Part shown: in pieces, positions 15,628 through 27,033 of the stretch | How the letters are laid out: every line of letters begins with the position of its first letter | Position numbering within the stretch: the first letter of the stretch is position 1 | Origin: Thermosipho affectus | GTDB lineage: Bacteria; Thermotogota; Thermotogae; Thermotogales; Fervidobacteriaceae | Assembly: GCF_001990485.1 (NCBI RefSeq) | Contig: NZ_LBFC01000018.1 | Coordinates: forward strand, 248,001-312,000 | Direction of reading: 5' to 3' | Length of the DNA: 64,000 nucleotides | Notes under the pieces: generated by a model | Seen by the model: only the letters and a program-made list of their open reading frames with translations | The model's database searches: none | What the model was told of the DNA's origin: nothing | Position numbers and translations under genes: made by a program

Positions 15628-16947
15628 ATGGGGATAGATGAGATTTTTGAGGTTATTGAGAGGGAAAAGATAAAATTTATAAGGTTGCAGTTTACCGACA
15701 TTAACGGGATATTAAAAAATGTCGAAATTCCTTCGAATGATTTAAAAAGGGCGTTTGAAAGGGGGATAATGTTTGATGGTTCATCAATTGAAGGGTTTGT
15801 TAGGATTAATGAATCGGATATGTATTTAAAGCCAGATCCAGCGACTTTTGCAATTCTTCCATGGACACTTGAAGGTCAAAAGAGTGCAAGAATAATTTGT
15901 GATGTTTACAAATATGATGGTACACCTTTTGAAGGGGATCCTAGGTTTAGATTGAGAAAAGTTATGGAAGAGGCAAAGGAATTAGGATTTGTCCCTCACA
16001 CAGGTCCTGAAGTTGAATTTTTCTTGTTGCCAAGAAAAGATAATAAACCTGTATTTGAATTTTTAGATGAAGGTGGATATTTCGATCTTTTGCCTGTAGA
16101 TATTGCAGAACACTTAAGAAGTGAAGTTGCTGTAATGTTAGAAGAGATGGGGATAGATGTTGAAGCTACGCATCATGAAGTTGCTCCATCACAACATGAA
16201 GTAGATTTTAGATACAGTAATGCTCTTTCATCCGCTGATGCCGTTCAAACTGTAAAGTTAGTTATAAAGACGTTAGCGGTAAAGAATAATTTATACGCGA
16301 CATTTATGCCTAAGCCATTTTTTGGAATTAATGGTAGTGGGATGCATGTGCATATGAGTTTGTTAACAAGTGATTTAAGTGAAAATGCGTTTTACGATAA
16401 GGAAAAAGATGATATTTCCGATATAATGAGGTATTTTATAGGAGGTTTAATAAAATTTGCAAGGCCTATAACGGCGATTACAAATCCAACTGTAAATAGT
16501 TATAAAAGGTTAGTTCCAGGATATGAAGCCCCTGTAAATGTCGCTTGGTCTCTTGCAAATAGATCTGCACTTATTAGAGTACCAATGGCAAGAAAAATGG
16601 GGACAAGATTAGAATATAGAGCACCTGATCCTTCATGTAATCCGTATTTAGCTTTTACTGTTTTAATTAAAGCGGGGCTTATTGGTATAAAGGAAAAAAT
16701 AGAACCACCAATGCCAGTTGAGGAAAATATTTATCATATGAAAGAAGAAGAAAAAGGAATTTTTGGGATAAAGTTGTTGCCGGAAAATCTTAGTGAAGCT
16801 ATAAATGAAATGGAAGGTTGCGAAATAATAAAAGAAGCACTTGGTGAGCATATATTTTCCAAATTTATAAAAATGAAAAGAAAAGAATGGAGAGAATATT
16901 CCACATTTGTAAGTGAATGGGAAAGAAGAAAATATGAAATAATATGA
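15628..16947 (+). CDS. glnA: Glutamine synthetase type I
   Basis: Glutamine synthetase joins ammonia to glutamate with ATP and is the main entry of nitrogen. The 439-residue length matches the shorter GSI-alpha class, which is normally not adenylylated. Visible motifs include MFDGSSIEGFVRI near residue 50, GPEVEFFLL near residue 128, the ATP-site FFGINGSGMHVHMS near residue 230 and NRSALIRVP near residue 310. ATG 15628 follows AGGGGGTG. It has its own promoter and a shared terminator, so it is probably monocistronic. Confidence 0.97.
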   Translation: MGIDEIFEVIEREKIKFIRLQFTDINGILKNVEIPSNDLKRAFERGIMFDGSSIEGFVRINESDMYLKPDPATFAILPWTLEGQKSARIICDVYKYDGTPFEGDPRFRLRKVMEEAKELGFVPHTGPEVEFFLLPRKDNKPVFEFLDEGGYFDLLPVDIAEHLRSEVAVMLEEMGIDVEATHHEVAPSQHEVDFRYSNALSSADAVQTVKLVIKTLAVKNNLYATFMPKPFFGINGSGMHVHMSLLTSDLSENAFYDKEKDDISDIMRYFIGGLIKFARPITAITNPTVNSYKRLVPGYEAPVNVAWSLANRSALIRVPMARKMGTRLEYRAPDPSCNPYLAFTVLIKAGLIGIKEKIEPPMPVEENIYHMKEEEKGIFGIKLLPENLSEAINEMEGCEIIKEALGEHIFSKFIKMKRKEWREYSTFVSEWERRKYEII

Positions 16948-16973
16948 GGGCTTAATTGCCCTCATATTTTTTG
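16942..16973. terminator. Bidirectional terminator between glnA and the pel-like operon
   Basis: A ten-base-pair stem (ATATGAGGGC with GCCCTCATAT) closes a six-base TTAATT loop and is followed by a T run on the + strand and preceded by A residues that serve the - strand. It overlaps the glnA stop and lies at the stop of the convergent GH114 gene. Confidence 0.88.
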
Positions 16974-17824
16974 TAGTATTTCAAACCAAGTGATATATCT
17001 TTTAAACGTTGATTTTTATTTGCGGGATATCCATAAAAATGATATTTTTCGCATAAATTAATAAATTCTTTTAAGATATTTTCATTATTTGGTGGGTATA
17101 TATAATCTGTAACAAGAACAAATTTTTCAGAGTTTTGTATTTTGAGTATGTACGTAAGTCTTTTTTCACTTTTTAGTTTTCTATTTTTGTAAAAAAATAG
17201 AGTTTCAATTCCTATTCCATCTATTGATTTTATGTACAAATTATTGAAATCAAAGTCTATAATATCTTCTCCATTTTGAGGTACAATTAAAAGGTTATTT
17301 ACTTTTTCTTTTATTTCGCTTAAAAATCTTATCATTTCATTTGCTGTAAACATTATCTCATAGCCATTTTCTGACCAATATTTATAAGAGTCTATTAAAT
17401 CGAGGTAAAGACCGTCTATATTGTATGACAAAATTTTATCTATTGTTTTGAAAACTATATTTTTCCATTCGCTATACCAATATTTTACTTTGTAATTTCC
17501 CTTCCAATATTTGTTTTCTTTTCCAAGCCATTTTGGTGGATTTTTTTTCCAAGCATCTTTCCAATAATCTCTATAGCTTTCTGCCTCGCCGATGCTTAAG
17601 TATGCAAGGATTTTTGTGCCGTCTTTTTGGAGTTTTTTTAGATAAACTTTGTCTTTATCATTTAAGTAGAAAACATCTATAACCAGAAATTTTGGAGTAT
17701 AAAAGGTATAGATTTTTTGTAAATCTATATTTTGAAGTTGATATATAAACGGTACATTTATCTTTTCAATACTTAGAGTATATATTAAAATCATAAATAT
17801 CAGGAATAAAGTTATATATTTCAT
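16952..17824 (-). CDS. GH114 family (TM1410-like) endo-alpha-1,4-polygalactosaminidase-type hydrolase
   Basis: GH114 enzymes cleave polymers rich in galactosamine, and PelA carries such a domain for trimming Pel polysaccharide. The 290-residue protein has a signal peptide or N-terminal anchor (residues 1-20) and then the TIM-barrel family texts FIYQLQNIDLQKI, AYLSIGEAESYRDYW, IDGLYLDLIDSYKYW and LIVPQNGEDI. The conserved acidic residues in those strands are likely catalytic. It is the last gene of the seven-gene pel-like operon, four bases after the deacetylase-like gene. Confidence 0.85.
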   Translation of the reverse strand: MKYITLFLIFMILIYTLSIEKINVPFIYQLQNIDLQKIYTFYTPKFLVIDVFYLNDKDKVYLKKLQKDGTKILAYLSIGEAESYRDYWKDAWKKNPPKWLGKENKYWKGNYKVKYWYSEWKNIVFKTIDKILSYNIDGLYLDLIDSYKYWSENGYEIMFTANEMIRFLSEIKEKVNNLLIVPQNGEDIIDFDFNNLYIKSIDGIGIETLFFYKNRKLKSEKRLTYILKIQNSEKFVLVTDYIYPPNNENILKEFINLCEKYHFYGYPANKNQRLKDISLGLKYYKKYEGN

Positions 17825-17828
17825 ATTA

Positions 17829-20084
17829 TCACCTTAGAAAAGTTATAACTACTTTTGATGAAGTTGTTTTTAATATGTATATATCGTTTTCGGGATAAAA
17901 TGCCACTATGTCACCTCCCAGTATGCTTCTTATGGGAATTTTTGTGCGTAAAAGAAAATATTTTGGTTTTAAAGCAGATGGTGAAATAATTATTTCCATT
18001 TTATCTTTTTTGATATTGTATTCGTATTTTTGTGTTAAAAAATCAAAAAAATAAGGATATGCCTCTGAAGCAGTTTGATTTTCTAACCATGGAAAAGTTA
18101 TCTTAACTTTGTAGTAGAATGTACTTAAATAAGACAATAGCTCTTCCCATGTTTTGTTTTTAGGATTTCTGTCATTTGAAAAGAAGTCATCTGGGTGTAT
18201 AAAGTGTTGGAAAGAACCAAAATTTGCAAGGGTGTTTATGGAATTTAAAAGGATTTTCTTAAGTGGATAATAACCATATGTGGATCGTGGTATTACAATT
18301 GCAAAGTTGCCGATAATTTTGTATTCTGAAAAATCATCATTAGATGTGTAAGTGGTACCTATTGTTTTTATTTCTGGAAGTGCCTTTAGTAAATTTTTTA
18401 TACCAAATTTATCTATTATATTATTTGGAGCTACATAACTATTTATAAAAATAGGATGTCCTAAAATTAATTGGATAAACTTTTTGGCCGATTTAAGACC
18501 TTCTTGTAGGTTTTTTTCATTTTCCCAATTTCTTTTTAAAAGTGAAAGATGATTATATCCGTGTAATCCAAGTTCATGTTCGGAGTTATCGATTTCAACT
18601 AATGCATTTGAGGGTTTATCTGAAATTAAAAATTCGGAAAAATCAAAAGGTGGATTACTTGCACCATTGTAACTTAAAGGTGTGACTATTGTGTATTTTA
18701 TATTGTAGCTTTTTGAAAAATCTTTCATGTCTTTCCACCATATGTTATAGTAAAAGTTTGTATCATTTATTCCCTTTTTAACAATTTCATACGACGGAAT
18801 TGGAAAATCGTCTATATAAAATATAAAAGAATTTAAAAATCCCATTATGTTAAAATCCTGCATATCAAGGATGCATTGTAAAATTAATCCCCTTGTTTCT
18901 TTTATTATAATTGGTGGATAAATGTATCCAAGGTATCCATTTTTTTCTTTTTTATACCAAATTACTGGAATGTTTTTATCACTTACAAGATAAGATAGAA
19001 TTTTTTCATTATGTAAATCCACATTGAAAGAAATTTCAAAACTTCTTTCAATTCCAATGCCGTTTTTGGTGTTTTTTAAAGGAAATATTTCTTTTTTAAA
19101 GAAAATTTTTTTGACGATATGTTCTTCAGTTTTTATGTTGTTTTTCCAGGGAGTATTATAAATATTTGTTATGTATAAAATTGTACCTCCGTTATTTAGA
19201 AACATCTCTGTATTTTCAGAAGAAATGAACTTTGAATTTGTACACCAAATTATATATTTATATGGTAAAAGATCTATAAATGATTTGTTATAAAAGTCAT
19301 CTATTATTGTTATATCAAAATTTATTTTTGCGTATTCTAAAGTTTTTTTTAGGTCATATTGAATCTTTGTGTAAAAGTTTGAATCATATGTATCTTTTAC
19401 GATTAGTATTTTGTTTTTCATTCCAACTTGTTTTGTCAAAAATACGTCTATTAGCTTTTCAATGTTGAGTACAACCTTTTCGTTGTTTAAAAAGCTATTG
19501 AAAATTGCACATCCACCTCTTGGAGAGATAAATATTAATGGATATTTTGTATCTTTTGATTTTAGATCTAAAATAATTTTTATATCTTTTGCAAAGATTT
19601 TGTATTTTTCAACAGGTTGTGGTAATGTACTTGGTGTTGCTGTAAAAAAATCCTTATCATATGTAATTTCAAAATTTTTTAAGACTTTGTATCCATACAT
19701 ATAATGTATACCTATCTTGTTCAATAGGTTGTTGATTTCCCTTTGTTCAGTTGAAACTCCTAAATTGTTAAAAAAGAAAAATATACCGCCTTCTTCAACA
19801 AATTTAGAAAGTTGTCTTAAGTATACTTCGGGAGTGTTTAGTTTTGTTGAGTAATACCATGAGATTATCCCAGTATAGTGTTTTGATGAGATGTTGTAGT
19901 AATTAAATTTTTCAATGTCTGCTAAATCAAAATTTAGGTTATTTTTTTCAAGGATGGGAATTACGTGATCTTTTAGCATGTATTCTCCGTATTCTTCAGA
20001 GCCTTTGTAGAGAAGTAAGATCTTTTTTTGAGAAAATGATAGGATGCTTAAGATTAGAAAAATTGTTAATAATATTTTTTTCAT
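17829..20084 (-). CDS. Secreted DUF2194-type, polysaccharide deacetylase-like protein (PelA-like part)
   Basis: The 751-residue protein starts with a signal peptide (1-18). Residues to about 400 resemble glutamine-amidotransferase-like folds without a clear active site. The C-terminal half has deacetylase features: FYIDDFP supplies the paired aspartates, ELGLHGYNHLS gives an HxxxH metal site, and FQHFIHPDDF a late histidine. I infer removal of acetyl groups from an exopolysaccharide, as the PelA deacetylase domain does. It overlaps pelG by four bases. DUF2194 is named from memory of the family, not from a search. Confidence 0.75.
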   Translation of the reverse strand: MKKILLTIFLILSILSFSQKKILLLYKGSEEYGEYMLKDHVIPILEKNNLNFDLADIEKFNYYNISSKHYTGIISWYYSTKLNTPEVYLRQLSKFVEEGGIFFFFNNLGVSTEQREINNLLNKIGIHYMYGYKVLKNFEITYDKDFFTATPSTLPQPVEKYKIFAKDIKIILDLKSKDTKYPLIFISPRGGCAIFNSFLNNEKVVLNIEKLIDVFLTKQVGMKNKILIVKDTYDSNFYTKIQYDLKKTLEYAKINFDITIIDDFYNKSFIDLLPYKYIIWCTNSKFISSENTEMFLNNGGTILYITNIYNTPWKNNIKTEEHIVKKIFFKKEIFPLKNTKNGIGIERSFEISFNVDLHNEKILSYLVSDKNIPVIWYKKEKNGYLGYIYPPIIIKETRGLILQCILDMQDFNIMGFLNSFIFYIDDFPIPSYEIVKKGINDTNFYYNIWWKDMKDFSKSYNIKYTIVTPLSYNGASNPPFDFSEFLISDKPSNALVEIDNSEHELGLHGYNHLSLLKRNWENEKNLQEGLKSAKKFIQLILGHPIFINSYVAPNNIIDKFGIKNLLKALPEIKTIGTTYTSNDDFSEYKIIGNFAIVIPRSTYGYYPLKKILLNSINTLANFGSFQHFIHPDDFFSNDRNPKNKTWEELLSYLSTFYYKVKITFPWLENQTASEAYPYFFDFLTQKYEYNIKKDKMEIIISPSALKPKYFLLRTKIPIRSILGGDIVAFYPENDIYILKTTSSKVVITFLR

Positions 20085-21472
20085 CTTTTCACTCCTCTAA
20101 TTAATTTTCCTTCTGGAAGAGAAGGATTTTGTCTGAAAAATTCGATTTTAATTATATCTTTTATTTTCTTTTTAAGTAATGTATATGAAACCATAGTTCC
20201 TATTAAAAATGAAAGGGCATATCCTGCACCAAGGGATGCATAACCTATCTTTGAGACTAAAATGTGGCTTAAGAAAATGTTCAAAAATAATACTGCTATA
20301 TTCAAACTAAACGCCAAATTTCTAAAATCGAAGTATAAAATTAATAATATTACCATGAGGTAAAAACCGTTGAGCATTGCCCCTATTAGTCCCAGTCTTA
20401 AAATAGGTTTTGAAAGTTCATTTGATATAGGGAGAAGTTTTAATTCATTTAGTATAAAAAATAACGTGGTAATTAATATTTGAATCTTTATGGTAAGTGA
20501 AATACTTTGTAAAAGTTCTTTTTCCATTTCATCTTTTATAGTTAATATCTCGGAATATACGTATCCTTCCTTTAGTGAAGTGTAAAAATGTTTATATTTT
20601 TTATAAAACCTTGTTTCAAGTACCAATATAAACATGGTAATTGTGGGAATTATAGTTAGATAACAAAAAAACATGGGACTATCGTATATAAATGAAAATT
20701 TAAATCCGTCTATTAATTCCTCTCCAAAGTTTGGATTATTCCACACTATAAAATCATCAACCCATATAGCAAGATAATACGAAACCCCTATTAACATAAG
20801 TTGCCAATATTTTTTTATTTCTTTTAACCATTCGAAGGAAATTTTTTGATTATTATTTCCAAATGTATTATATACTGTTATAAAATTTGTTATTATACCC
20901 ACAGTTATACCTAATGCATAACCATATATTTCCGAAAGGTTGTAGTAGGAAAATAATTTGGAAAAAACAATAGAAGATATACCCATTAATACATATGATG
21001 TAATGTACCAATTAATTTCGTCAGTGGAAATTGCCGCAATTGAAATTAACCATAAGACAAGTAATGAGAGTGTAAGATAGGTAAATGAAATAATAAATTT
21101 AAATGGTTGGGGATTAAATAGAAAAAATAAAACAAGAAAGATAATTAATAAAGTTGCATTTGCTACAATTATTCCCAATGTTTCAGGGAGAATTTTTTCA
21201 TATTCTTTTAAATACATAATATCTGAAATTCTCCTTGAAAGAAACATAGAAAAAATCCCTGATATTATTATAGAAAAAATAAATCCATATATGATCGCAG
21301 TATTAAAGTAAATGTTAAATATATTTAAATAGTTAAGTATTATCCACAAAGATAAAGTGGTAATAATCCATGGACCTGAAGCGGTCAATATAGAATAAAG
21401 TATGGCAAGTGCATCTGTCGAAACTCTATTTTGAAAGAATAATTTATTTAATTTAAATCCGACTCCCGCCAA
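20081..21472 (-). CDS. pelG: PelG-like polysaccharide flippase
   Basis: PelG is an inner-membrane protein of the polysaccharide-transport/MATE-like superfamily, thought to move Pel polymer across the membrane. The 463-residue product has about twelve membrane segments and opens with MAGVGFKLNKLF followed by SGPWIITTLSL, wording typical of PelG. It follows pelF after one base and overlaps the next gene by four bases, which supports a shared job. Confidence 0.87.
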   Translation of the reverse strand: MAGVGFKLNKLFFQNRVSTDALAILYSILTASGPWIITTLSLWIILNYLNIFNIYFNTAIIYGFIFSIIISGIFSMFLSRRISDIMYLKEYEKILPETLGIIVANATLLIIFLVLFFLFNPQPFKFIISFTYLTLSLLVLWLISIAAISTDEINWYITSYVLMGISSIVFSKLFSYYNLSEIYGYALGITVGIITNFITVYNTFGNNNQKISFEWLKEIKKYWQLMLIGVSYYLAIWVDDFIVWNNPNFGEELIDGFKFSFIYDSPMFFCYLTIIPTITMFILVLETRFYKKYKHFYTSLKEGYVYSEILTIKDEMEKELLQSISLTIKIQILITTLFFILNELKLLPISNELSKPILRLGLIGAMLNGFYLMVILLILYFDFRNLAFSLNIAVLFLNIFLSHILVSKIGYASLGAGYALSFLIGTMVSYTLLKKKIKDIIKIEFFRQNPSLPEGKLIRGVKR

Positions 21473-21473
21473 G

Positions 21474-22889
21474 TTATTCCACCACCGAATAGTATAGTTT
21501 TTTGTAGTTTCCCACCATTTGATCTAACCTATATCTTAACATTACCCTTTTTTTTCCTATTTCTGATGCTCTTTTTCTAAAAGAATCGTCTTTGTACAAA
21601 GTGATAATTGCATTTGCCATGGCTTTAAAATCTTTGGGCTTTACGACAATGCCAGCAGGACCTATAATGTCTTCTTTACTACCGTATATTAATTCTCTAC
21701 ATGCCCCAACGTTTGTTGCAACTACTGGAATACCTATTGATAATGCTTCAAGTATAACTAGTGGTTGACCTTCACTTATACTTGAAATTAGAAGGATATT
21801 TAATTTATCGTAATATTCTTTTACGTCAACCATTCCAGTAAATTCAACCGTGTCTTTTAAGTTGAATATTTCTACCATTTCGTAACATTCTTTAAAGTAA
21901 TCAGGTTCCTCATCGGTAGGACCAATTATGTATAACTTGAAAGATTTTATTTCATCTTTTGCTATTCTTGCAGCTTTTATTGCTGTCTTTATATCTTTTA
22001 TTTCTACAACTCGTCCTACAATTCCAATGGTAAATGGTTGTTTTTCTTTTCTGTATTGTATGTCTTTGAATCTTTCTACATCAATACCATTTGGTATTAC
22101 AAGCATTTTTGAGTGTTCACTGCAGAGTTCTTTTTCAAATTTTTGGTTGTCTTCAAATAATGTTGTTATTTTCTTTGCACCTTTGTATACAATTGAGCTT
22201 ATTGTGTTAAAAAGTTTTATCCACCCTGTTTTGAATTCTTCTTTAATCCAATCCGAACGTAGTATTTCAAGTTGTCTTTCTCTGTGATATATACCATGTT
22301 CAGTAAGAATCACGGGTTTGTTGTATTTTAACCCATTTAAAATAGCTGAAATTCCTGCATATCCTGTGGTGATTGTATGGTATATATCGCATTTTGGAAG
22401 ATCAATAGCCATAGAATTTAAAAAGGGTATCATCATAGAATATAATGTCCAGTAGTAATTTGGAAAATTCTCAAAAGGCAAGTATTTTTCATAGAATTTT
22501 AGTATTGAACTCCAATAGAACTCAGATTTTAGGAAACTTGTAAAATCGAAATTGAGATTTTTCTTAAATAGATAATATAAATCCTTTCCCATTTTATTTT
22601 CATTAAATGGATAGGTTATAATTTTTCCTAGAGAATTGGTAAATTTTTTTGTTACTTTTCTTTTATTTTTAAATTTGTATTTTGCAAAGAGGTAGAATTC
22701 AAAATAATCTGTTACGTTTTCGGGAAACACGTATTTTTGCTTTCTTTCTCTTGGAGTATCACCCACATGAATAACGCAAAATTCAATATCTTTCATGTTT
22801 TTTATTAAAGAATGTCCCCAGTTTGATACGCCTCCCACCACGTAAGGATAAGTACCTTCAAAAAGTAGACCTACTTTCAGATTAATCAC
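21474..22889 (-). CDS. pelF: PelF-like GT4 glycosyltransferase
   Basis: PelF is the cytosolic glycosyltransferase that polymerises Pel from UDP-sugar. The 471-residue protein has the PelF N-terminal signature LLFEGTYPYVVGGVSNWGHS at residues 8-27, ILTEHGIYHRERQ near residue 195, then a GT-B C-terminal domain with IPNGIDVERF, GIVGRVVEIKDI and the EX7E-type EGQPLVILEA. ATG 22889 lies inside the preceding small gene (eight-base overlap), and pelG follows after one base. Donor specificity cannot be read from sequence. Confidence 0.9.
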   Translation of the reverse strand: MINLKVGLLFEGTYPYVVGGVSNWGHSLIKNMKDIEFCVIHVGDTPRERKQKYVFPENVTDYFEFYLFAKYKFKNKRKVTKKFTNSLGKIITYPFNENKMGKDLYYLFKKNLNFDFTSFLKSEFYWSSILKFYEKYLPFENFPNYYWTLYSMMIPFLNSMAIDLPKCDIYHTITTGYAGISAILNGLKYNKPVILTEHGIYHRERQLEILRSDWIKEEFKTGWIKLFNTISSIVYKGAKKITTLFEDNQKFEKELCSEHSKMLVIPNGIDVERFKDIQYRKEKQPFTIGIVGRVVEIKDIKTAIKAARIAKDEIKSFKLYIIGPTDEEPDYFKECYEMVEIFNLKDTVEFTGMVDVKEYYDKLNILLISSISEGQPLVILEALSIGIPVVATNVGACRELIYGSKEDIIGPAGIVVKPKDFKAMANAIITLYKDDSFRKRASEIGKKRVMLRYRLDQMVGNYKKLYYSVVE

Positions 22890-23274
22890 CTTCCAAGATT
22901 TTTTTTAGTTTTTTTTCCGATGGATTGTTTTTAATTATATAAAGTCCTATTTTTTGTGTATATGATAAATTTAATTTTTCAAGTTCTTTGATTAGTAAAT
23001 TAAATTTTAAACTTTCGGCAAATTTGTATTTGTTAAAATCCTTTAGTGTTGAAGAAATTAAGATGAGGTATTCTACTTTAGATAAGTCTTCAATACCAAG
23101 TTCTTTTTTATGGTACAATTCGTTAAATGTTTCGTTCATTTTTATGTATAAACTTCTTTTATTCCAAGGCAGTTTTTTTAGTTCATACGGTGATTCAATC
23201 ACCGCTTGATTGTAGTTTATTACAATTATTAAAATTATTAAAATGAAAGTTATAATAAAAAGGATTTTATCCAT
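22882..23274 (-). CDS. Small membrane-anchored protein of the pel-like operon
   Basis: The 130-residue product has one membrane segment (residues 4-21) and then a lysine- and glutamate-rich helical region that would be cytosolic or periplasmic. I recognise no family. It sits between the PelE-like gene and pelF with a one-base gap and an eight-base overlap, so it is almost certainly co-translated. It could be a second piece of PelE or an assembly partner for PelF. Confidence 0.75.
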   Translation of the reverse strand: MDKILFIITFILIILIIVINYNQAVIESPYELKKLPWNKRSLYIKMNETFNELYHKKELGIEDLSKVEYLILISSTLKDFNKYKFAESLKFNLLIKELEKLNLSYTQKIGLYIIKNNPSEKKLKKILEGD

Positions 23275-23275
23275 G

Positions 23276-24133
23276 TTATCCCTCCAAGAGTATTTTTAGT
23301 GCTTCGTTTTTAAATGAAAAGTTATAAGAGTAGAAAACGTTTAATAGTTCTTTGACCTCTTTGATATTACGTTGTTTTAGATAATATAACATTGCTTTTT
23401 CAAATAGAGGTTGAAATTTTAGTTTTTTTAGTTTTTCATCTAATATTTTTTCAATCAAGGTATTTTCTCCTAATTCTTGTAATACATCTAATAACAAAAG
23501 GATTGCTTCTATATTAAGAGGATATTTTTCTAAGAATTGTAGAAGTGTTTTTTTTGTAGAGATAAGTATATCTGTTTTTTGATTTTCGGTAAGAAATGGA
23601 GAAAGTGCATAATAGAATGAATACCTTGCGTATTCTACTTTATTATTGATTTTTGAAAGTTTTTCTAAAAGTAAATTTTCAATATTGTTTATTGCTTCAG
23701 TTGTGTATAAAATTACATCTTGGTTTGTTTCTACTTTTATGACTAAATAAAGTAGACGAAGACCTTCCAAAAAGTCTATTTGTTCTTTTTTTAGTAGTTC
23801 GAATAACAAACGTATAGCTTCCTTTTTTTGTGAAACACTTCCGTGTTTTATGATTATGTTAAATGGTGCAAGATCAACACTTTTAAAGTTTGGGTTGAAT
23901 GTTTCAATGTTTTTTTCTTTAAATTCTATAGGGATATATTTTGGTTTTTTTTGGGTTATTAATAATGTTTTTATTATTGGATAATACGGGAAAAATATAA
24001 TAGATCCAATAAGATCTGATACTTTTAGATCTATTAAGTTTAGTATTAGATATAGAAAGAAGAAGAATATATTTAATTTTATTAAAGAAAGAATTCCAAA
24101 AATAAGTGATACAAATATAATTATTTTTTTCAT
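23276..24133 (-). CDS. pelE: PelE-like membrane protein with helical repeats
   Basis: In known Pel systems PelE is an inner-membrane protein with a helical repeat domain that helps PelD, PelF and PelG form the synthase complex. This 285-residue protein has two hydrophobic stretches (about residues 3-35 and 40-62) and then an all-helical region with TPR- or HEAT-like spacing, e.g. GSVSQKKEAIRLLFELL and PLNIEAILLLLDVLQELG. Identification rests mainly on topology and position between pelD and pelF; sequence similarity was not tested. It overlaps pelD by four bases. Confidence 0.65.
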   Translation of the reverse strand: MKKIIIFVSLIFGILSLIKLNIFFFFLYLILNLIDLKVSDLIGSIIFFPYYPIIKTLLITQKKPKYIPIEFKEKNIETFNPNFKSVDLAPFNIIIKHGSVSQKKEAIRLLFELLKKEQIDFLEGLRLLYLVIKVETNQDVILYTTEAINNIENLLLEKLSKINNKVEYARYSFYYALSPFLTENQKTDILISTKKTLLQFLEKYPLNIEAILLLLDVLQELGENTLIEKILDEKLKKLKFQPLFEKAMLYYLKQRNIKEVKELLNVFYSYNFSFKNEALKILLEG

Positions 24134-25326
24134 TCTTTTGTATAAGCCTCCAGTATGTTTAGTTTCCTTTCGGTTTTAATTTTGTTTAACACGCGATTTA
24201 GTCCTTGGGAATTGCAAGAAGTTAAGAGAATACTTAGCTTGTTTTGTAACGGATTGTAAAAAACAAAATCAGTTTCTCTGATATATTTTTTTATCTTGCT
24301 AATATCAAAATCTTTAGTAATAGAAGCTTCGATAAGTGAGTATGGAATTTTAAACCTTTTAAATCTTTCATCTATCTTTTCAAATACGGCTTTAAATTTT
24401 TCTATATCTGTAGTTATAGTCTGCTTTTCAAGTTCAATTGAAACATATAGAAGGTTTGATAGCCAATCTGATAAAAGTTTAAGATATGTTTCCGTATTTT
24501 TGTTTATTTTCTCAGGGTCCATGTTTTCAATTAGGACAAAACCTATTGTTTTATTTCTTTGAGAAATTTTTGTAGCCATTATAGGTTCCATAGAAAAGTC
24601 TACATTTTCATCTGAAATGTACAAAACACTTACAGATGCAAATCCTAAATCATTGGCCATTGAAATTATCTTTGATTTTTCTATTGGAAATGAATTTGGA
24701 AGGATTTGTGGACCTTTTCTAACTTTTAATCGTAAAAAGTTGTTCTTACTTAGAGTATATATGGAAACAGTTATGGCGCTTACAAAGTCGTATATTAGTT
24801 CCACTGCTTCATTAAATATGTCTTCAGGATTATTAAATTCTATTTCTTTTAATCTATCCACAAACAAAGAAACTCCTTTATTTTCAAGGAGTAGCTTGTT
24901 TTGAAGGTCATTAGTCAAAAGTTTATATTTTTCTATAGTTTTTTCAAGTGCTTTTATTTTTTCATTTAAAAGATTAATTTGTGTTTTTTGTTCATTTATT
25001 TTTTGTACATAGCTATCTCTAAAAAATCCGGTTATGAACCCCATAGATAGAAGTACTATCGGAAATCTTAGAACGGGCCAAGTAAAGATAACGGTAAAAA
25101 TATTTATATTGTAGTGGATGTATAAAGATAAAAAATAGAAAAATAAACTAAATGTGGATGAGAAAAAAAACATATCTAAGCCATGTCTTATAGATATATA
25201 TATGTTTAATATGCAATATGGATTTGGATAAGATAAAACGTATCCGTAGTATTTGAAAATAATATCAAATGTAAAAAGAAGAGAATTAAGGAGAATAATT
25301 TCTATATAGTTGGAGTATTTTTTCAT
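24130..25326 (-). CDS. pelD: PelD-like c-di-GMP receptor (membrane, GAF, degenerate GGDEF)
   Basis: PelD senses c-di-GMP and switches on Pel polymer synthesis. The 398-residue protein has about four membrane segments in residues 8-105, a coiled coil at 105-150, a GAF-like domain near 155-300 and a C-terminal GGDEF-like domain. In the last, IRETDFVF holds RxxD at 350-353, the place of the c-di-GMP inhibitory site, while PLQNK at 359-363 stands where GG(D/E)EF would be. It should therefore bind but not make c-di-GMP. It is the first gene of the seven-gene operon. Confidence 0.82.
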   Translation of the reverse strand: MKKYSNYIEIILLNSLLFTFDIIFKYYGYVLSYPNPYCILNIYISIRHGLDMFFFSSTFSLFFYFLSLYIHYNINIFTVIFTWPVLRFPIVLLSMGFITGFFRDSYVQKINEQKTQINLLNEKIKALEKTIEKYKLLTNDLQNKLLLENKGVSLFVDRLKEIEFNNPEDIFNEAVELIYDFVSAITVSIYTLSKNNFLRLKVRKGPQILPNSFPIEKSKIISMANDLGFASVSVLYISDENVDFSMEPIMATKISQRNKTIGFVLIENMDPEKINKNTETYLKLLSDWLSNLLYVSIELEKQTITTDIEKFKAVFEKIDERFKRFKIPYSLIEASITKDFDISKIKKYIRETDFVFYNPLQNKLSILLTSCNSQGLNRVLNKIKTERKLNILEAYTKE

Positions 25327-25731: not shown

Positions 25732-27033
25732 ATGGGGAATTTTTTGAAGAATTTAGATTTGAAAAAGAATAGGTTATTTATATATGTATGTTTTTTAGGA
25801 GCATTATATGCGCTCCTTCTTTTTCTTTCTATAAGAAAAAATGGCTTTGACCTTTTTGACATAAATTTTTACCTAATGATTGCTTTTTATATTGCATTTG
25901 AACTTGTGCTTGTAAACCTTCAGACGTTTATTGAGAAGAAATTTGAAGAAAAAGAAAAAAAGTTTGATTTGATATTGAGTGCTGGAATGATTATTTCTAT
26001 TATTTCTGCTGGTATTCTCAATATTTCAAATGCAATGCTTTTACCTTTGATTTCTTTTCTTTTTTTAAAACCAAAGGTTTTGTTTTCTAAGAATTATCAT
26101 TTTTTTGTTTTTAATACTTCAATGATAGGTCTTTTGATTTTTATTGTATCTAAGTTATTTCATTGGGGTTCTTTTATCATGAAAAATATCCTTTTATCTT
26201 CCATTTATGTTGTTGTTCTTTCTGTTTTTTATACTTTTTTTAATTTTTCTTTTGTATTTTTGTTTTTATATTTTTTCTACAATGGTTCATTTAAGGCTTG
26301 TGTAAGACAAGTATTTGGTGAAGGAAGGTTTTTTAATAGTATTTTTACATCTTTGAATATCTTTGTGGTTTATTTTTTGTACAGGTTGGTTGGTGTTTCC
26401 GCAATTCCTATTACATTTTTTACAATTGTTAGTGTACAGCTTGGAAATTATTATGCTACAAAATACAGAAATGCAAAGGTTGATTTTTTAACGGTACTTA
26501 CCAAAAGTTTAGAAGAAAAGGATAGTTATACTTTTGGACATGGAGAAAATGTTTCAAAACTTGCCGTAAAAGTGGCAAAAGAGCTAGGGTTTCCCGATAA
26601 AGATTTAAAGTTAATTGAGATTGCGGGAGTATTACATGATGTGGGAAAAATAGGAATTCCAGATATAATTCTTTTGAAAACAGATAAGTTGTCTTTTGAG
26701 GAGTACGAAATAATGAAAGAACATTCTAAAAAGGGATATGAAATATTAAAAAATATAACAGAGTATAAAGATACTATAGCAAAATGGGTGTTGCATCATC
26801 ACGAAAGATGGGATGGAAAAGGTTACCCAGATGGGTTGTCAAAAGAAGATATTCCAGTTGTTTCTAGAATATTAACTATATGTGATGTTTTTGATGCACT
26901 TACAAGTGACAGGACGTATCGAAAGGCATGGAAGAAAGAAAGGGCAATATTATTTATAGAGGAAAATTCGGGAGTGATTTTTGATCCTAAAATCGTTAAA
27001 ATATTTTTAAGTTTGGTAAGGAGTGAGTATTAA
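25732..27033 (+). CDS. Polytopic membrane HD-GYP c-di-GMP phosphodiesterase
   Basis: HD-GYP domains hydrolyse c-di-GMP using a metal centre. This 433-residue protein has about six membrane segments in residues 14-240, then an intact HD-GYP domain: HGENVSKLA at 270, HDVGKIGIPD with HD at 302-303, HHHERWDGKGYPDGL with HHE at 356-358 and GYP at 364-366, and DALTSDRTYRKA near 388. ATG 25732 follows a CAGGTGAT site. Its N-terminal membrane domain may be a sensor. The next gene overlaps its stop by one base. Confidence 0.9.
   Translation: MGNFLKNLDLKKNRLFIYVCFLGALYALLLFLSIRKNGFDLFDINFYLMIAFYIAFELVLVNLQTFIEKKFEEKEKKFDLILSAGMIISIISAGILNISNAMLLPLISFLFLKPKVLFSKNYHFFVFNTSMIGLLIFIVSKLFHWGSFIMKNILLSSIYVVVLSVFYTFFNFSFVFLFLYFFYNGSFKACVRQVFGEGRFFNSIFTSLNIFVVYFLYRLVGVSAIPITFFTIVSVQLGNYYATKYRNAKVDFLTVLTKSLEEKDSYTFGHGENVSKLAVKVAKELGFPDKDLKLIEIAGVLHDVGKIGIPDIILLKTDKLSFEEYEIMKEHSKKGYEILKNITEYKDTIAKWVLHHHERWDGKGYPDGLSKEDIPVVSRILTICDVFDALTSDRTYRKAWKKERAILFIEENSGVIFDPKIVKIFLSLVRSEY

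Follow-up and report, generated by a model that had tools for sequence, protein, structure and literature searches.

Thermotogota, the phylum of the source organism Thermosipho affectus, are diderm bacteria with a toga. The analysed DNA, a stretch of 64,000 nucleotides (hereafter the window), carries seven genes with similarity to exopolysaccharide genes of the Pel type, and raises the question how a polymer of this kind would be made and exported behind such an envelope. The sequences argue strongly for an operon of the monoderm pelDEADAFG type, controlled by c-di-GMP and producing a Pel-like polymer by known steps in a diderm thermophile. The preliminary description noted the division of PelA into two chains and regarded a heat-adapted, minimal Pel pathway in a toga-bearing organism as new. 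Novelty is not supported for either. Separate PelADA and PelAH proteins already define the Gram-positive pelDEADAFG operons, which are likewise without PelB or PelC (PMC7112168), so the split is not novel, and Pel operons of Thermotogae were listed, in one sentence, in 2020 (PMC7112194). New are the detailed anatomy of the Thermotogota loci, the position of GH191/TM1410 within pel loci and a side-by-side view of how diderms differ in their outer-membrane modules; a monoderm-type pel set in a diderm phylum looks new as well.

Seven co-directional ORFs run on the minus strand from 25326 to 16952 and their translations in the window correspond, in this order, to PelD, PelE, X130, PelF and PelG, followed by one protein of the DUF2194 family and one that resembles GH114 (Table 1). 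This agrees with the seven-gene operon of the preliminary description in its coordinates and in lying on one strand, and likewise in the gaps of at most four bases or short overlaps. PelD/PelE and PelG/PelADA overlap by 4 bases and X130/PelF by 8, PelE/X130 and PelF/PelG are separated by 1 base each and PelADA/GH191 by 4. Purine-rich, Shine-Dalgarno-like stretches are found upstream of most starts. At the downstream edge a glutamine-synthetase-like ORF (15628-16947) lies tail-to-tail with the operon.

Table 1. Genes of the operon and the neighbouring HD-GYP-type gene, with positions in the window.
Gene	Description	Position	Strand	Basis
pelD-like	hydrophobic N-terminal helices; coiled coil; GAF domain; degenerate GGDEF carrying an RxxD I-site	24130..25326	-	profile, hhalign, AF2/Foldseek
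pelE-like	N-terminal membrane segments, C-terminal soluble region (probably helical)	23276..24133	-	profile and position
X130	130-residue single-pass membrane protein	22882..23274	-	operon-restricted homologues
pelF	GT4 glycosyltransferase, predicted Pel polymerase	21474..22889	-	NF038011, EX7E
pelG	polytopic membrane exporter	20081..21472	-	PF16933
pelADA	DUF2194/CE26-type deacetylase, 751 residues	17829..20084	-	PF09960, PDB 9zau
GH191 (TM1410 family)	endo-galactosaminidase-like protein, predicted counterpart of PelAH in function	16952..17824	-	TIGR01370, TM1410 structures
HD-GYP-type gene	outside the operon, divergent from it	25732..27033	+	motif in translation

The identities of the synthase and the exporter, proposed earlier for checking by HMM searches, are borne out, as both proteins exceed the curated family cut-offs: PelF scores 369.9 bits against the NCBIfam equivalog NF038011 (E 2.4e-110; cut-off 100) and has its EX7E motif at residues 373-381, and PelG scores 365.7 bits against PF16933 (E 4.8e-109; cut-off 29). 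The DUF2194 protein (543.7 bits to PF09960; cut-off 30.4) has a single relative in the PDB, 9zau (E 3.9e-32). This is the structure of Bacillus cereus PelADA, the founding member of CE26 and CBM114, which deacetylates alpha-1,4-GalNAc oligomers and is required for Pel (PMC13254593). D425, D426, H508, H512, P553, R600, H630 and D633 of the window protein correspond to D262, D263, the HxxxH motif, P405, R458, H488 and D491, the reported catalytic residues of the B. cereus enzyme, and across 10 Thermotogota and 2 Fusobacteriota proteins all of them are invariant except P553, which is nearly so. The suggested relationship of DUF2194 to the deacetylase of Pel is therefore confirmed, as is the encoding of deacetylase and hydrolase by two separate ORFs.

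Thermotogota PelADA possess an additional N-terminal domain of ~200 residues. Many of the matches in Spirochaetota extend over this domain, those of Bacillota begin after about residue 200, and the Fusobacteriota proteins are without it. Positions 36-197 of PF09960 match the window protein twice, and hhalign scores the comparison at E 3e-4 (probability 39); on this suggestive evidence the additional domain may be a tandem duplicate of the carbohydrate-binding domain.

The last gene was originally assigned to GH114, and its product does exceed the cut-off of that family (PF03537, 73.4 bits; cut-off 27), but GH191, as the TM1410 family is named in CAZy (PMC12054363), is the better placement. It scores 215.6 bits against TIGR01370 (MJ1477/TM1410; cut-off 181.25), matches the TM1410 structures at E 3.4e-48, and its predicted catalytic pair D142/E207 is aligned with D156/E225 of TmGH191. 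A GH191 protein encoded at another locus of our set (L044) is identical to TM1410 across all 323 residues, and its gene is divergent from and adjoins pelADA-pelG-pelD-pelE. From this neighbourhood Pel is predicted to be the natural substrate of TM1410. The enzyme thereby gains a concrete substrate hypothesis, while its authors saw no activity: in the 2025 study of TmGH191, in which the word "operon" is absent, GAG oligomers were neither bound nor cleaved and the galactosaminidase nature was questioned, and the relative Env-GH191 is the only GH191 shown to act on Pel (PMC12054363).

PelD and PelE individually match no Pfam family above cut-off, and single-sequence searches with PelD against the PDB and Pfam returned noise only. 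A profile of 18 relatives of PelD matches five deposited PelD sequences from crystal structures at E 0.003-0.005. These matches are lost with a larger profile; we consequently regard the sequence-only PDB support as marginal and rely on the fold, the I-site and hhalign. In the latter, 379 columns of PelD align with its Caballeronia counterpart (E 1.2e-5, probability 80.9), and the Thermotogota PelD profile matches PelD of non-Negativicutes Bacillota at E 1e-15 or better. An AF2 model built from 28 relatives (pLDDT 82; an earlier alignment-free model with pLDDT 46 was discarded) retrieves P. aeruginosa PelD in all top 7 Foldseek matches to solved structures (best E 1.8e-8), with TM-scores that are low (0.36-0.38) across the two-domain stretch, probably because the orientation of the domains differs. 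The RxxD I-site is R350-E-T-D353, of which R350 and D353 are invariant in 28 of 28 Thermotogota sequences. The protein combines all features expected of PelD, namely a membrane region, a GAF domain, a degenerate GGDEF domain and the c-di-GMP I-site.

PelE is a weak, putative assignment, made mainly from its position and from weak but correctly placed profile matches. A Thermotogota-only profile finds the gene that occupies the place of pelE in Victivallales (7e-7), Veillonellaceae (2.4e-6) and Tumebacillus (3.5e-4); matches at this position span E 7e-7 to 2e-3, and several Bacillota loci have none. The similarity to Caballeronia PelE is likewise weak (hhalign E 0.0064, probability 5.9). X130, with a hydrophobic segment at residues 1-29, matches none of the families searched. 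Counting the window, 15 loci of the Thermotogota set have it between pelE and pelF, and its homologues are restricted to this type of operon; its role in the pathway is presumptive.

The HD-GYP-type gene begins ~400 bases upstream of the operon and, with the motif HDVGK...HHERWDGKGYP, likely encodes a c-di-GMP phosphodiesterase. Such a gene is located close to pelD in all 4 genomes of the genus (window, L042, L045, L049), and divergently in the window. In the Marinitoga loci (L035:4190-4897 and others) the gene immediately before pelD encodes a PilZ/YcgR-like receptor of c-di-GMP; the family match is shown in L035.

The distribution of the genes was surveyed in 103 Thermotogota genomes, in which PelG (40), PelF (41) and DUF2194 (35) were found above cut-off. 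PelF accompanies PelG in 40 of 40 genomes (Fisher p = 7e-28, with near relatives not independent), DUF2194 never occurs without PelG (35 of 35; Fisher p 2e-22, kinship ignored), and GH191 relatives occur in 33 of 40 genomes with PelG and in 3 of the 63 others. Five PelG genomes are without DUF2194, and two genera possess a D-E-X-F-G or D-E-F-G cluster only. The gene order of the window, D-E-X-F-G-ADA-GH191, occurs in the genus of the window, in a Thermosipho MAG and in Marinitoga, and the seven genes recur in this order in 12 loci from three genera. Thermotoga-like genomes display ADA-G-D-E, frequently with a convergent F, and Fervidobacterium-like genomes two loci, G-D-E and F-ADA. Conservation of order in relatives, which the preliminary description proposed to look for, is real but not phylum-wide, while the set is kept. 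This recurrence, together with the co-occurrence of PelF and PelG, argues that the operon is more than a chance arrangement. Two adjacent pel clusters with duplicated pelG, pelD, pelE and pelF are found in some Thermotoga-like genomes (L048, L061, L064). By this prediction, ~40% of the Thermotogota genomes surveyed would have a c-di-GMP-responsive Pel pathway, and the genome encoding TM1410 would be one of them.

In a quick PelG tree the Thermotogota form one clade (SH-aLRT 100), which groups with Bacillota and Fusobacteriota (97; the fork is drawn open) and is separate from PelG of Proteobacteria and spirochaetes. Within the Thermotogota clade the window-type PelG unites genomes of three families, which suggests transfer inside the phylum.

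The lack of PelB noted in the preliminary description extends from the operon to the genome and the phylum, as the PelB barrel (PF24604) was detected in 0 of 103 Thermotogota genomes with a search that matched the Caballeronia positive control. Caballeronia PelC as query had no match, in a search without a positive control. Clustering of the neighbouring genes revealed no recurrent outer-membrane exporter gene beside Thermotogota pel loci. The Marinitoga genes following pelADA, considered as export candidates, are housekeeping enzymes by sequence. A Poly_export/SLBB protein is encoded by 83 of the 103 genomes, that of the window among them. We reject it as a dedicated Pel exporter, since nearly all Thermotogota have it and its gene is unlinked to pel; it stays a candidate for a general channel. 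The protein at G000:C15:49586-49798 (L215), with ~840 residues, Poly_export and SLBB-like repeats, is such a candidate general outer-membrane polysaccharide channel.

Other diderm phyla display different neighbours. In five loci of Fusobacteriota pelG is directly followed by related genes for a small outer-membrane beta-barrel (L071:12510-13427, L072:12719-13669, L190:8845-9564, L197:9036-10091, L209:7513-8460), candidate replacements of PelB, and PelG of Fusobacteriota has 704-875 residues where complete, compared to ~460. In Spirochaetota loci a TPR protein of 1222-1666 residues is located beside pelG or pelADA (L147:6243-9911, L157:5844-9548, L198:4330-9330). It is unrecognised by the PelB barrel model and probably represents a divergent PelB. 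Thermotogota have neither gene at this place. For Thermotogota we tentatively propose, at somewhat less than even chances, that Pel is made with a monoderm machine and crosses the outer membrane and the toga without PelB, either through a borrowed general exporter, e.g., the SLBB-containing Poly_export protein, or by means of the toga itself. If true, a single ancestral Pel core would have been fitted with a different outer-membrane module in each diderm phylum: a giant TPR protein in Spirochaetota, a small barrel in Fusobacteriota, and in Thermotogota a module that is unlinked or absent.

In the pathway that we infer for the window, c-di-GMP would bind to the I-site of PelD and activate the complex that PelD, PelE and PelG form in the membrane, together with the cytoplasmic synthase PelF. 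PelF would polymerise GalNAc from UDP-GalNAc, which a GalE-type epimerase encoded elsewhere would supply, and PelG would carry the chain over the cytoplasmic membrane. Exported PelADA would then partly deacetylate the polymer and render it cationic, and exported GH191 may cut the deacetylated stretches and so limit or release the matrix. The HD-GYP protein would probably lower local c-di-GMP. The genome contains a GalE equivalog and 15 GGDEF matches, which support a c-di-GMP-controlled GalNAc polymer, and the kinship of the hydrolase to Env-GH191 supports a polymer of the Pel type. The inertness of TmGH191 on GAG oligomers, the marginal homology of PelE to the proteobacterial protein, the five PelG genomes without DUF2194, the reduced clusters of two genera and the absence of a recognised outer-membrane exit, which a diderm needs, count against it.

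Some of the same observations can be read differently. The machinery may instead serve another product, i.e., a PelF-dependent hexosamine polymer of differing composition or a glycan bound to the wall or toga in place of a free biofilm polymer, and the inactive TmGH191 (PMC12054363), the possibility that divergent pel operons do not give identical polymers (PMC7112194) and the absence of a linked outer-membrane exporter would fit this explanation. We nevertheless consider it unlikely, given that PelADA has the catalytic residues of an enzyme whose substrate is alpha-1,4-GalNAc, that a GH191 relative acts on Pel and that the GalE equivalog is present. The giant TPR protein of Spirochaetota, situated beside PelADA and missed by PF24604, indicates that this model can overlook PelB-like proteins, and on these grounds a full P. 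aeruginosa-type system is conceivable whose PelB and PelC genes lie elsewhere and have diverged too far to be recognised. It is very improbable in view of the barrel model's failure to match in any Thermotogota genome despite the positive control, the missing recurrent outer-membrane gene beside the pel loci and the split of PelA, as in monoderms.

We give still less credence to a degenerate or repurposed cluster that has lost polysaccharide synthesis. Two-locus and partial versions in relatives, and a few genomes with what are probably gene fragments, point in that direction, but all seven frames in the window are intact and tightly joined, the catalytic and I-site residues are retained, and the seven-gene set is complete in 4 of 4 genomes of the genus.

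Among known systems, the pelDEADAFG operon of B. cereus (PMC7112168, PMC13254593) shares PelD, PelE, PelADA, PelF, PelG, the separate hydrolase and the absence of PelB and PelC from the operon. The window differs in its order D-E-X130-F-G-ADA-GH191, in the inclusion of the hydrolase in the operon, in the added X130, in the extra N-terminal domain of PelADA and in its diderm host phylum; the order D-E-ADA-F-G, which is typical of this operon type and not defining, does not occur in it. TM1410/TmGH191 (PDB 9eux, 2aam) belongs to the same family as the hydrolase of the window and has the same catalytic pair, whereas the latter closes its operon and is devoid of the lipobox-like ISSC of TM1410. 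With pelABCDEFG of P. aeruginosa the window shares, as far as predicted from sequence, PelD with its RxxD I-site, the position of PelE, PelF, PelG and the deacetylase and hydrolase activities, but neither the fused PelA nor the PelB barrel, and PelC had no match in the uncontrolled search.

Streptococcal PelD has been reported without a GGDEF domain. PelD of Fusobacterium vincentii (L072:5332-6219) likewise is without this domain, and its control is probably independent of c-di-GMP. The pel loci of Fusobacteriota (Cetobacterium, Fusobacterium, Leptotrichiaceae) resemble the window in combining PelADA, GH191 and PelD-E-F-G in a diderm, and differ by the small barrel gene after pelG and the longer PelG. 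The coupling of one inner-membrane Pel core to differing envelopes can be compared across Thermotogota, Fusobacteriota and Spirochaetota.
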